Shown: piece by piece, positions 13,159 to 23,291 of the stretch
How the letters are laid out: each line of letters begins with the position of its first letter
How positions within the stretch are numbered: the stretch's first letter is position 1
Source of the DNA: an uncultured Peptostreptococcaceae bacterium
Lineage (GTDB): Bacteria; Bacillota; Clostridia; Peptostreptococcales; Anaerovoracaceae
Length of the DNA: 64,000 nucleotides
Direction: 5' to 3'
Assembly (NCBI GenBank): GCA_949740445.1
Contig: CATJIF010000088.1
Span: forward strand, 1-64,000
The notes under the pieces: model-generated
Seen by the model: only the letters and a program-made list of their open reading frames with translations
Database searches by the model: none
What the model was told of the DNA's origin: nothing
Made by a program: the position numbers and the translations under genes

Positions 13159-14319
13159 ATGAATTATGACTTATCTGCCGTCACGATATTAAAGATGCTG
13201 GGGTATGACCAGTCAACGGGCAGGGAATGGCTCGAAACATTAAAGCAGGAGAAGCATATCGACCTGCCTGAAATCTACACAGAATTTATGGAGAAAATAG
13301 TTGACTGCCCTCTTTTAGGCACATCGAATCTCTGGGTTGGAAACATGGAGCACAGGGCGCCTGCGCACATTCCCTGTACATTCTACGACCAGTTGCAGGA
13401 AATGATCGCTGACCGGAAAGGACGGTGGTCGAAGCGCCCTGGAAAGTATGAACGCGCTCTTTATGAGCTATCTCAGCTTCCGAAAGAAGATTGGCCGAAA
13501 AAGGTGGAGAATTACCTTGTAATTGGCAGCGACTATGCAAATGGAATGGGCCAGTTCGGCATTCGCATGGACGATTTGCACAAAGACAATCCACCCGTAT
13601 ATTGGCACAAACATACGGACAGCTTTTCAATGTGGAAGCTGGAAAGCGAAACATTATCTGACTTTTTACTGAATGTATTGATTGAGGCTCTTGCCTGCGT
13701 GGACTATCCGAGTGCGGAATACGAATTGGAAGCAAAGGGTTGGCGGTACGAAGAGTACTTTGATCTCAAAAAGGACGACTGGGTTGCGAGCAAATCTGTC
13801 CTAAAGCGGTACGGCATTGATTATTCCGCCATCAAAAAATATAAAGCCAGCAGCGGAAAGGTCTTTTGCTGTTACGACGAGGACAGAAACGCTTTTTTTG
13901 TTGGCTCTACAGTCGAAGGGGAAATGTCCCTGTCTGCGATTAACCGCAGCGAGGCAGAGCCTGTCTTTTTAGACCTTGACAGCCTGGAATTTCTGCTGGA
14001 GGAAGCCAGGCTGTTCCTCAAGGATAAAGACAGGGATGATCTGACTCAATATTATCTTTACACAAAAATCCCGAAAACAGAAGTCTGCCTCTCTGATTAT
14101 TGTCAGGCAGATAAGCCGCCGCAGAAGGGAGAGAATGGGGAGAGCATTTGCCCGACAACCGCTAAGAAGGAACCTCTTTACGTTTTATGCAGCGGGACTG
14201 CTTTTGTGGAAGCAATAACCAAGGCGATAGAGAAAAAACCGAAGGTTACCAATGAGGAGCTGACAGCAATCTTAAACTATTATCTGCAAACCGGAAATCC
14301 CTTGGGGACTGATTGCTGA
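13159..14319 (+). CDS. SMI1/KNR4-like (SUKH) protein
   Basis: A 386-residue protein whose N-terminal half resembles SMI1/KNR4 (SUKH) proteins: IDLPEIYTEFMEK near residues 34-46, and NYLVIGSD followed by GQFGIRMDDL and PPVYWHKH, the usual strand pattern of the fold. SUKH proteins often act as immunity proteins against contact-dependent or polymorphic toxins, but many are only regulators, so the function here is open. The C-terminal third (from about 270) is not recognised. AGGAGG (13146-13151) sets the start. No toxin gene is adjacent; the neighbours are other orphan genes in the same orientation. Confidence 0.72.
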   Translation: MNYDLSAVTILKMLGYDQSTGREWLETLKQEKHIDLPEIYTEFMEKIVDCPLLGTSNLWVGNMEHRAPAHIPCTFYDQLQEMIADRKGRWSKRPGKYERALYELSQLPKEDWPKKVENYLVIGSDYANGMGQFGIRMDDLHKDNPPVYWHKHTDSFSMWKLESETLSDFLLNVLIEALACVDYPSAEYELEAKGWRYEEYFDLKKDDWVASKSVLKRYGIDYSAIKKYKASSGKVFCCYDEDRNAFFVGSTVEGEMSLSAINRSEAEPVFLDLDSLEFLLEEARLFLKDKDRDDLTQYYLYTKIPKTEVCLSDYCQADKPPQKGENGESICPTTAKKEPLYVLCSGTAFVEAITKAIEKKPKVTNEELTAILNYYLQTGNPLGTDC

Positions 14320-20180: not shown

Positions 20181-20208
20181 AAAAACAGGTTCGAACCAGG
20201 GGGAAACG

Positions 20209-21231
20209 ATGGACTTCAGCGCACTGTTACAGACAACCGAGTACGATTTTATCAGAAGCAATCCACGGCTGGGCGACCGCATTATGCTTCTCGGCGTGGG
20301 CGGAAGCTACGCCTACGGAACAAACCAGGCGGGCAGCGACATCGACCTGCGGGGAGTAACACTGCAGGCTCCATCGGATTTGATCGGTCTAACGAAATTC
20401 GAGCAATATGAGGATGCCAAAACGGATACCGTCGTATACGGCTTCAATAAGCTGATCCAGCTGCTTCTGGAATGCAACCCCAACACCTGCGAAATCTTAG
20501 GGCTGGAAGACGAGCAGTACCTGATCCAATCGGAGCTTGGGAAGGAGCTGATCGCCAACAGCCGGCTGTTTCTTTCCAAGCGCGCCATCCGCTCCTTCGG
20601 CGGCTACGCCGATGCTCAGCTGCGCCGCCTGCAGAACGCCATTGCCAGAGATACGCTTTCCCAGAGCGACCGCGAAACGCATATTTTGACATCCGTAAGA
20701 AACGCGCTGGAGGATTTCAACCGGCGGTATTCCGGCGGAACACAGGGAAGCATGCGCCTGTATATCGACAAGACGGAAAATCCCAGGCTCGATACGGAAA
20801 TCTTCGTCGATGCGGAATATAACCACTTTCCGCTGCGGGATTATACGGACCTGTGGGCGAGGATGCGCACCGTGGTGCGGGAATACGACAAAACGGGAAA
20901 GCGCAACAAAAAGAAAGACGATACCCACCTGAACAAACACGCCATGCACCTGATCCGCCTGTTTATGATGGCCATCGACATATTGGAAAAAGGCGAGATA
21001 CGAACCCGCAGGCGGGACGATCTGCCAATTTTGCTGGCCATCCGGCGGGGCGAATACAAGCTGCCGGATAGTACGTTTTCCCCCGAATTTTACGAGCTGC
21101 TAAAAACCTGCGAACGCCGGCTGGATGAAGCAGCAAAACGGACAACGCTGCCGGATCAGCCGGACATGGAACGCGTAGAGCGATTTGTAGAGCGCGTCAA
21201 CCGCTATGCGGTAACGGGAGAGCTGCGATGA
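20209..21231 (+). CDS. DNA polymerase beta-type nucleotidyltransferase (RlaP/YcgL-like)
   Basis: A 340-residue NTase-fold protein. LGVGGSYAYGTNQ (residues 28-40) followed by GSDIDLRG with Asp44 and Asp46 gives the GS and DxD metal-binding motifs. A long helical C-terminal domain contains CNPNTCEILGL and many Arg/Lys residues suited to nucleic-acid binding. It fits the family annotated as predicted nucleotidyltransferases (RlaP, COG3541), also found in phages, linked by genome context to RNA repair. AGGGGGA (20198-20204) supports the ATG at 20209. Its stop overlaps the next start by ATGA. Substrate unknown. Confidence 0.82.
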   Translation: MDFSALLQTTEYDFIRSNPRLGDRIMLLGVGGSYAYGTNQAGSDIDLRGVTLQAPSDLIGLTKFEQYEDAKTDTVVYGFNKLIQLLLECNPNTCEILGLEDEQYLIQSELGKELIANSRLFLSKRAIRSFGGYADAQLRRLQNAIARDTLSQSDRETHILTSVRNALEDFNRRYSGGTQGSMRLYIDKTENPRLDTEIFVDAEYNHFPLRDYTDLWARMRTVVREYDKTGKRNKKKDDTHLNKHAMHLIRLFMMAIDILEKGEIRTRRRDDLPILLAIRRGEYKLPDSTFSPEFYELLKTCERRLDEAAKRTTLPDQPDMERVERFVERVNRYAVTGELR

Positions 21232-22019
21232 AAGCGATAGAAACAAGAATTGAAGAAACGCTGTGCGAAATCGAAGAAAAAGAGGGAGTTCGCATCCTCC
21301 ATGCGGTGGAATCCGGAAGCCGGGCCTGGGGCTTCGCCTCCCCGGACAGCGATTACGACGTGCGGTTTGTTTATGTGAGGCCGCAGGCGGAATACCTGCG
21401 CCTGGACGAGCCGAGAGATGTCATCGAATGGCAGCTGGACGAGGTGCTGGATATTAACGGATGGGATCTGAAAAAGGCCCTGCGGCAGTTCGCAAAGGGG
21501 AACGCCACGCTCTTTGAGTGGAGCGGTTCGCCCATTGTGTATCGCAGCTCAAAGGACTGGCAGAGCATCCGCCAAGTGTCGGCGCAGTATTTTTCGGAAA
21601 AATCGGCGGTATATCACTATTACGGCACAGCCAACAGCACGCTGCAGGAATATCTGACAGGGGACACCGTGCGCTATAAAAAGTATTTTTATGCGCTGCG
21701 CCCGCTGCTGGCAGCACGATACATCGAAGCCTATCACAAGGCGCCGCCGGTATTGTTCGATGAACTGCTGCCCGCACTGGAACTTCCGCCAAAGCTTCGG
21801 GAGGCCATCGGTGAGCTTCTCTCGCTGAAAAAACGCACGACAGAAAAGGAAGAGCATCCGCAGCTGCTGGCGATTCAGGCGTTTATCTGCTCGGAAACTG
21901 CGCGGCAGAAAGAAATCGCTGCGCAGATGACAGATGACCGAAAAAAAGACTGGGCTGCCTTAAACCGGGTGTTTCTGGAAGTGGTTTCTGGAAGCAGACG
22001 GACCGATGGTTTTTCTTAG
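21228..22019 (+). CDS. Second RlaP-like nucleotidyltransferase
   Basis: A 263-residue NTase with GSRAWGFASPDSDYDVRF (residues 30-47), where GS and Asp42/Asp44 form the catalytic signature; this spelling is typical of the RlaP (YcgL) family. It is smaller than the first copy and diverges after the NTase core (shared NTase fold, different helical domains), so the two are paralogues or partners, not a recent duplication. The start lies in the ATGA overlap at 21228, indicating tight coupling. With the upstream Nudix gene it forms a three-gene unit whose role may be nucleotide or RNA-end processing; that is inference. Confidence 0.83.
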   Translation: MKAIETRIEETLCEIEEKEGVRILHAVESGSRAWGFASPDSDYDVRFVYVRPQAEYLRLDEPRDVIEWQLDEVLDINGWDLKKALRQFAKGNATLFEWSGSPIVYRSSKDWQSIRQVSAQYFSEKSAVYHYYGTANSTLQEYLTGDTVRYKKYFYALRPLLAARYIEAYHKAPPVLFDELLPALELPPKLREAIGELLSLKKRTTEKEEHPQLLAIQAFICSETARQKEIAAQMTDDRKKDWAALNRVFLEVVSGSRRTDGFS

Positions 22020-22109
22020 GCGTAATCTATAGAGCAGCAATAAAAGGAAAACATTGATTATATCAGATTAGAATGAACAGTTAATCAGATGCGATAGGAT
22101 GAGGCAGAT

Positions 22110-23291
22110 ATGGAAGCACTGTTTAATGGAAATGTCGTATTTGTATTCTTTTTTGCAGTCATTGCCATCTACAATTACTCGGATTTAAAGGAGTATCAGA
22201 AAATTGCGATTATATATATTACCGTATATTCTCTGGTAGCTTGCAATATAGTAGACATCCCGCTGGCGATTCTACTTTTGTTTTTAGCGATGTTCTGCTT
22301 TTTAGAAATCCTTACAGAGGATGAAACAAAATTCAGGATTCTCGTAAATCCCCTGTATAAGGTATTCGATTGTCTTTATTTATCTTTCGTTCAATACGCT
22401 TTTTTAGAAATGCTTTTGGCGCTTTTGCTGTGCCATAACATTTTTAGTTCTTTATTTTGCGAATGCAAACCAGTATTTTTGATGCTGTCGTTTGTCATGA
22501 TCGTGCGGGCGCTGACCCATACGCTGCAGCAGAAGTTTGTAATTTATTCCTTTTACGAAATGTATCGGGTATTTACCGAATTTCCGATCAATCAGGTGGA
22601 TTTTAATAATGAAAATTTTGATGAAGCCTGCAAAATACTGGTATCCATTGAGGACAGGATGTACTATGAAAGAAAAGGATATACGTTTTTATCTATAGAT
22701 GCAATCAAACGCATTATCAAAGAAAAGCTGCTTTATATATCAGATATAAGAGAAAAGATAAAATATACATACGATGCCGGGAAAAAATTTATCAGAAATG
22801 CATTCAGCGAAGACAGGGGATACTCCACCATTCCCATGCAGTTAATCCGCACCCTTGGAATACAGAGGGGATATAACTATAAATATCGGCGGAAAATATT
22901 TGAGATTTTGTATTCCCGGATGTTTTTCAAAGGCGTTGAACACATGTTCAATGAAGATCTGGTAGAACAGCGGGAACAGATTAGACAATATTATTTATAT
23001 ATTTATTTTCACAAAGTAAATACCTTTTTAGGCGGTGCCAAATTCAGCAAATTCCTCAATGCCTTTGATATGCAATACAATCGTAGAAATAAAAAGGATA
23101 TTTATGAATGTTCCAAGGAAGGAATCTTTATTGCTTGTATGGGGCTTAGCAAGAGGGCTGATCGAATCGACGAAACCAATATTGACTACTATTTGAGCCT
23201 TGTGGATGGCGTAGATCTGGATGGCGAGGTGATTTGCAATATGGTATCGGAAATGATGACAAGGCCCTATGATGGGAATTACTTAAAATAG
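22110..23291 (+). CDS. Polytopic membrane protein with a divergent GT51 peptidoglycan glycosyltransferase domain
   Basis: A 393-residue AT-rich gene. About five hydrophobic segments lie within residues 7-135. The following domain carries three GT51 motifs in order: EDRMYYERKG at 181-190 (pattern EDxxFxxHxG, with Tyr for Phe and Arg for His), GYSTIPMQ at 237-244 (GxSTIxxQ) and RKIFE at 261-265 (RKxxE). GT51 enzymes polymerise lipid II into glycan strands outside the membrane. The catalytic Glu position (181) is kept. There is no transpeptidase domain, and GT51 proteins normally have one N-terminal anchor, so the membrane block is unusual. It follows the NTase operon by 90 bases and lies among decayed genes. 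Confidence 0.68.
   Translation: MEALFNGNVVFVFFFAVIAIYNYSDLKEYQKIAIIYITVYSLVACNIVDIPLAILLLFLAMFCFLEILTEDETKFRILVNPLYKVFDCLYLSFVQYAFLEMLLALLLCHNIFSSLFCECKPVFLMLSFVMIVRALTHTLQQKFVIYSFYEMYRVFTEFPINQVDFNNENFDEACKILVSIEDRMYYERKGYTFLSIDAIKRIIKEKLLYISDIREKIKYTYDAGKKFIRNAFSEDRGYSTIPMQLIRTLGIQRGYNYKYRRKIFEILYSRMFFKGVEHMFNEDLVEQREQIRQYYLYIYFHKVNTFLGGAKFSKFLNAFDMQYNRRNKKDIYECSKEGIFIACMGLSKRADRIDETNIDYYLSLVDGVDLDGEVICNMVSEMMTRPYDGNYLK

Follow-up and report, generated by a model that had tools for sequence, protein, structure and literature searches.

A GT51-derived domain on a five-helix membrane anchor in a rare, patchily distributed family of the Bacillota with a possible role against phages

The gene at 22110..23291 (+) of the window, as the whole 64,000-nucleotide stretch of DNA analyzed here is called, encodes a GT51-like polytopic membrane protein of 393 residues. 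It belongs to a small and patchy family in the Bacillota, of which nine full-length members were found (alignment A3). Residues from about 146 to about 380 descend from GT51, a homology regarded as firm. The textbook view of GT51 enzymes is that of polymerases working outside the cytoplasm, which are also targeted by drugs (e.g., moenomycin); their fold binds and polymerizes lipid II. The interest of the family is that it is mobile, that five helices anchor this fold, which probably faces the opposite side of the membrane, and that its genes occur in anti-phage neighborhoods. The explanation favored here, with a probability of about 0.4, is that of a mobile, single-gene, GT51-derived membrane effector at the inner face, which acts on or binds a lipid-linked glycan and is used against phages. 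If true, bacterial immunity would attack or sense lipid-linked wall precursors from inside the cell.

The open reading frame starts with ATG, 5 nt downstream of the Shine-Dalgarno-like GGATGAGG (22097..22104, +). A reading as a pseudogene or frameshifted gene was ruled out, as the nine full-length family members align end to end. The GC content of the gene is 36%, that of the two preceding genes 54–55%, and that of the next gene 51%. Its surroundings form a lower-GC accessory stretch (10299-33422) that resembles polymorphic-toxin immunity islands and harbors four SUKH (SMI1/KNR4) immunity-like genes (at 13159, 17252, 27565, and 32730), a Fic gene (10299), and a Sel1-repeat gene (30394). Directly upstream of the GT51-like gene are two tandem genes for nucleotidyltransferases of the RlaP type (20206-22019), i.e., of the RNA repair pathway polymerase-beta family, the second of which matches strongly (E 1e-86). 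The window copy has no clear defense neighbor.

The GT51-like domain (residues about 146-380; 22545..23249, +), predicted to be cytoplasmic, was assigned from structural matches, hhalign, and a positive-inside count. The protein matches Pfam PF00912 with an E value of 0.0025 and 17.7 bits, under the curated cut-off of 27, and, itself included, four of the five family members tested match weakly over the same stretch (E 0.0014-0.017, with 15-18.5 bits for the relatives), all of them below the cut-off. When hhalign compared the family profile with GT51 domains encoded in genomes of the window's order, the P value was 2e-6. A second comparison, which used the soluble part and added the penicillin-binding proteins (PBPs) of the carriers themselves, scored 54.6 (P 3e-7), the maximum among 40 column shuffles being 15.5. 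Motifs 1-3 are in register, and the alignment extends from motif 1 across the motif-4 region into the C-terminal half. In the reverse direction, family profiles find genuine PBPs in genomes with E values of 1.5e-4 and 4e-6.

The predicted fold of the domain is that of GT51. An AlphaFold2 model of the member P0001, built template-free from an alignment of five family members without any PBP, has a pLDDT of 73 and a pTM of 0.65. GT51 structures fill the first 16 places among its structural matches (Z 7.7-9.9; 3HZS at 9.9, 3NB6 at 9.1, and PBP1b at 8.4), and the next match drops to 5.8. Because helical models can reach middling Z values by chance, as the aligner itself warns, the fold argument is built on this GT51-only ranking rather than on Z by itself. 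For a second member, whose model is poorer (pLDDT 68), a GT51 again ranks first, but narrowly, at 7.6 vs 6.9 for an unrelated chain. Foldseek alone has a GT51 as its top match, but with an E value of 0.44, and nothing GT51-like was matched in the viral structure library. The original prediction had staked itself on a GT51 fold and on a match to PF00912; the predicted fold came out as GT51, and profile searches do match, weakly.

Three GT51 motifs had been proposed, at residues 181-190, 237-244, and 261-265, and all are confirmed in the 393-residue reading frame. Motif 1 (EDRMYYERKG, residues 181-190; 22650..22679, +) has E181 at the position of the catalytic Glu and R188 at that of the His. 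Motif 2 (RGYSTIPMQLIR, residues 236-247; 22815..22850, +) contains GYSTIPMQ at residues 237-244, and motif 3 (RKIFE, residues 261-265; 22890..22904, +) aligns to GT51 motif 3, its Glu being present in most members and replaced by Asp in the Enterococcus one. The hhalign register extends to a motif-4-like region and the GT51 C-terminal half (residues about 288-350; 22971..23159, +). The description of the domain as “stripped-down” has to be abandoned, since the whole domain is present, the alignment continuing past motif 3 over the motif-4 region and as far as the C-terminal half. The motif-4 Glu is not conserved: at the position that the GT51 alignment assigns to it, the family has Q, T, E, M, or Y.

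Invariant in all nine members are F62, E181, D182, R188, R236, G237, Q244, R247, R261, K262, and Y268, and nine of these 11 residues fall inside the segments of motifs 1-3 (hypergeometric p 4e-10, with segment limits set by the analyst). The replacement of the motif-1 His by Arg, already pointed out in the original prediction, is a hallmark of the family (9/9). The Phe-to-Tyr substitution in the same motif is present as well but loses the significance attached to it, as relatives carry F, Y, or L. In Staphylococcus aureus MtgA, the catalytic positions that match motif 1 are E100, D101, and H107; the Glu-to-Gln mutant of E100 has been crystallized, and polymerization is abolished by D101N and by Q136E (PMC6053601). 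The position of Q136 is occupied by Met in most family members, which is no sign of inactivity because an ordinary PBP of one carrier (L060) has Met there, too. As judged from the alignment, selection is maintaining most of the GT51 active site, with a family-specific change, since the Glu and Asp are retained, His is Arg in all members, and the motif-4 Glu is not conserved.

The five predicted transmembrane helices (residues 7-23, 32-48, 50-68, 96-112, and 120-136; 22128..22517, +) were derived from a hydrophobicity scan of nine members and from two AlphaFold2 models, both of which have an identical helix order and a kinked fourth helix. The scan gives five hydrophobic helices in 9/9 members, the fourth helix of the L014 member, which it missed, having been set by hand from the alignment. 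Five membrane helices ahead of the motifs and the lack of a transpeptidase had both been foreseen, and both stand: the hydrophobic segments recur in the nine members, and no transpeptidase follows the GT51-like domain of the 22110-23291 product. A topology check of the N-terminal block, which had been suggested, thus returns the five helices; the sidedness of the domain had been overlooked.

The N-terminus is devoid of Lys and Arg in every member. Summed over the nine members, 18 Lys and Arg residues occur among 284 residues on the N-terminal side vs 87 among 697 on the GT51 side (binomial p 0.007, the members not being independent), and the bias has the same direction in 9/9 members with the C-terminal tail included or left out. 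The positive-inside rule works in these organisms, because 16 of 18 genuine GT51 proteins from carriers and relatives have the normal charge pattern. Read in this way, the N-terminus is probably outside and the GT51 domain cytoplasmic, the reverse of how the PBPs encoded in these genomes are oriented. The assignment draws on simple hydrophobicity and the positive-inside rule, and a re-entrant fourth segment would flip it. Cysteine content, tried as a sign of cytoplasmic location, was dropped, being strong vs PBPs of the window's order and weak (p 0.018) vs the carriers' own PBPs. Of the suggestion that the enzyme modifies the wall in defense, the defensive role is plausible, but action on the wall from outside disagrees with the charges, which predict a cytoplasmic domain in 9/9 members. 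The change of substrate that was also suggested may apply.

Relatives with 58-60% identity are found in Faecalibacillus faecis and in a contig from the human gut recorded as phage (MT836124.1), and those with 20-30% identity in a Lactococcus plasmid, two Enterococcus plasmids, Acetoanaerobium, and three further genomes. A protein search of 148 relatives and 398 phylum members detected the family only in the genome of origin; the same holds for a profile search of 198 order members, in which the second match is a PBP. Among the other groups searched, no more than about 1% of the genomes have the family. This rarity and patchiness are the pattern expected of a mobile accessory gene. Several matches were discarded: that in G598 is a GT2 glycosyltransferase in which YSTIPMQL occurs by chance, and those in G075 and G1696 are ordinary PBPs.

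No named family for the protein emerged from searches of Pfam, NCBIfam, PADLOC, and PHROGs, and PADLOC has no model that covers a GT51-like membrane protein. A sequence search of PDB chains gave no match, and no relative was found among the IMG/VR viral contigs scanned. No such protein was found described in the literature searched, a comparison that does not extend to the plasmid systems of lactococci in Grafakou et al. 2024 (PMC11381338, cited in PMC13335696). The family is real and GT51-derived and is without several defining traits of canonical GT51 enzymes, i.e., a score above the Pfam cut-off, the motif-1 His, the motif-4 Glu, the single anchor, and probably the sidedness. It is therefore filed as a variant and not as a canonical peptidoglycan glycosyltransferase.

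Several database records of the carriers call for comment. The annotation of the Lactococcus protein WP_347449962.1 is probably 25 residues too short (L003 10001-10076), and the upstream ATG at L003 10001 yields the N-terminus common to the family. The Acetoanaerobium member P0006 has about 190 additional C-terminal residues (434-620; L007 11000-11563) that are absent from the other members. MT836124.1 (L006) is entered as “Bacteriophage sp.” but, with its TRAP-transporter and restriction-type genes, seems to be a bacterial contig, and NZ_CP154629.1, the 2.63-Mb “plasmid” pTPELB2, looks like a chromosome with DprA- and topoisomerase I-like genes.

The homologue search with inspection of neighbors that had been recommended yielded nine members sharing the five-helix block, several of them beside defense genes or on mobile elements. 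At L013, the family gene lies between hsdS and hsdR, on the same strand, in a type I restriction-modification locus; a 234-residue protein without a Pfam match (L013 11329-12033) adjoins it and may be a further defense gene. At L006, the genes that follow it encode a GmrSD-type protein (HEC-05-like in PADLOC), a helicase of the restriction type, and a subtilase similar to IetS. At L002, a KAP NTPase is encoded upstream of it, and a PHP-AAA ATPase similar to PADLOC Ppl comes after it. The copies at L003 and L004/L005 are plasmid-borne, the latter beside IS1216, and both Enterococcus plasmids have bacteriocin genes a few kb away.

In Acetoanaerobium noterae DSL2 (L007), the gene is found after an endolysin at a prophage edge. 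The phage ANDSL2_ph1 carries only its first 61 codons, the remainder lying beyond the junction; ordinary prophage cargo was rejected as a description of this copy, since the gene spans the prophage edge. A comM-like gene is split around the whole insert (L007 9701-11563; L016 15363-15575). Two loci have no clear defense neighbor: at L014, the family gene follows a capsule/LCP locus, and at L025 it stands alone, with sugar-transferase genes a few kb away. Wall or capsule genes are absent from most loci. The nine loci thus comprise three beside clear defense genes, one prophage edge, two plasmid types, two neutral settings, and the accessory region of the window. As raw locus counts of this kind, the neighborhoods lean towards a defense role. 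Horizontal movement of the family is supported by its patchy spread, mobile elements, and defense islands; the horizontal origin first proposed for the AT-rich gene agrees with its GC content and with this distribution.

A mechanism can be hypothesized on this basis. The charge distribution would place the GT51-derived domain at the cytoplasmic face of the membrane, where an active or at least substrate-binding site may be retained for an undecaprenyl-pyrophosphate-linked glycan, such as lipid II or another inner-leaflet precursor. Phage infection or a membrane disturbance, a trigger that is guessed at, would release the enzyme. It would then consume or trap a lipid-linked precursor together with its carrier lipid, a substrate that is likewise a guess, such that wall synthesis and growth would halt before phage maturation, i.e., abortive infection. 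The narrower proposal of a topologically inverted GT51 enzyme, the first on the cytoplasmic face, which uses pre-flip lipid II or a lipid-linked glycan for the arrest step of abortive infection, is considered unlikely, at roughly half the weight of the broader one.

An enzyme at the cell surface would be the conventional reading, given that all known GT51 enzymes act outside. The protein would then be an accessory polymerase of peptidoglycan or capsule, or else it would modify the wall or a phage receptor, using outer-leaflet lipid-linked glycans. The capsule/LCP locus at L014 and the sugar-transferase genes at L025 fit such a function, but the charge distribution is opposite in 9/9 members, the same rule reads the genuine PBPs of these genomes correctly, and most loci offer no wall or capsule genes. 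One chance in four or so seems appropriate for the surface enzyme. Hardly different in standing is a GT51-derived protein without catalysis that binds lipid-linked glycans, either as a sensor of wall or membrane damage or as protection from toxins or bacteriocins. The family-wide Arg in place of the motif-1 His, the unconserved motif-4 Glu, and the bacteriocin genes of both Enterococcus plasmids are in its favor. However, the invariant Glu and Asp of motif 1, Gln of motif 2, and Arg-Lys of motif 3 suggest that chemistry is retained, and the bacteriocin link is limited to one plasmid lineage.

By far the least probable is that the protein is an unrelated, helical membrane protein with a chance resemblance to GT51. 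The sub-threshold Pfam score and the E value of the best Foldseek match, itself a GT51, would allow for it, but the profile score is far above that of shuffles, GT51 enzymes are top-ranked for two members, and the invariant residues are concentrated in the motifs.

The favored reading, a mobile effector at the inner face, resembles single-gene membrane proteins of abortive infection or superinfection exclusion, which are likewise encoded by one gene, are polytopic or membrane-anchored, and occur on plasmids, at a prophage edge, and in defense islands. To our knowledge, no such protein has a GT51 domain, and we know of no GT51 enzyme that works inside the cell. The class A PBPs (PBP1a, PBP1b, and PBP2) have a homologous GT51 domain, but the family has no transpeptidase, a different anchor, and an opposite charge distribution around the membrane segments. 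The monofunctional peptidoglycan glycosyltransferase MtgA/SgtB (GT51; S. aureus 3HZS and 3VMT) shares with the family a lone GT51 domain without a transpeptidase and provides the best structural match of the family model (Z 9.9); common to both are the catalytic Glu and Asp of motif 1, the Ser-Thr and a Gln of motif 2, and the Arg-Lys of motif 3. In contrast to the single anchor and external domain of MtgA/SgtB, the family has five helices and a domain predicted to be inside, and it is further distinguished by the Arg in place of the motif-1 His, the unconserved motif-4 Glu, and a patchy, mobile distribution.
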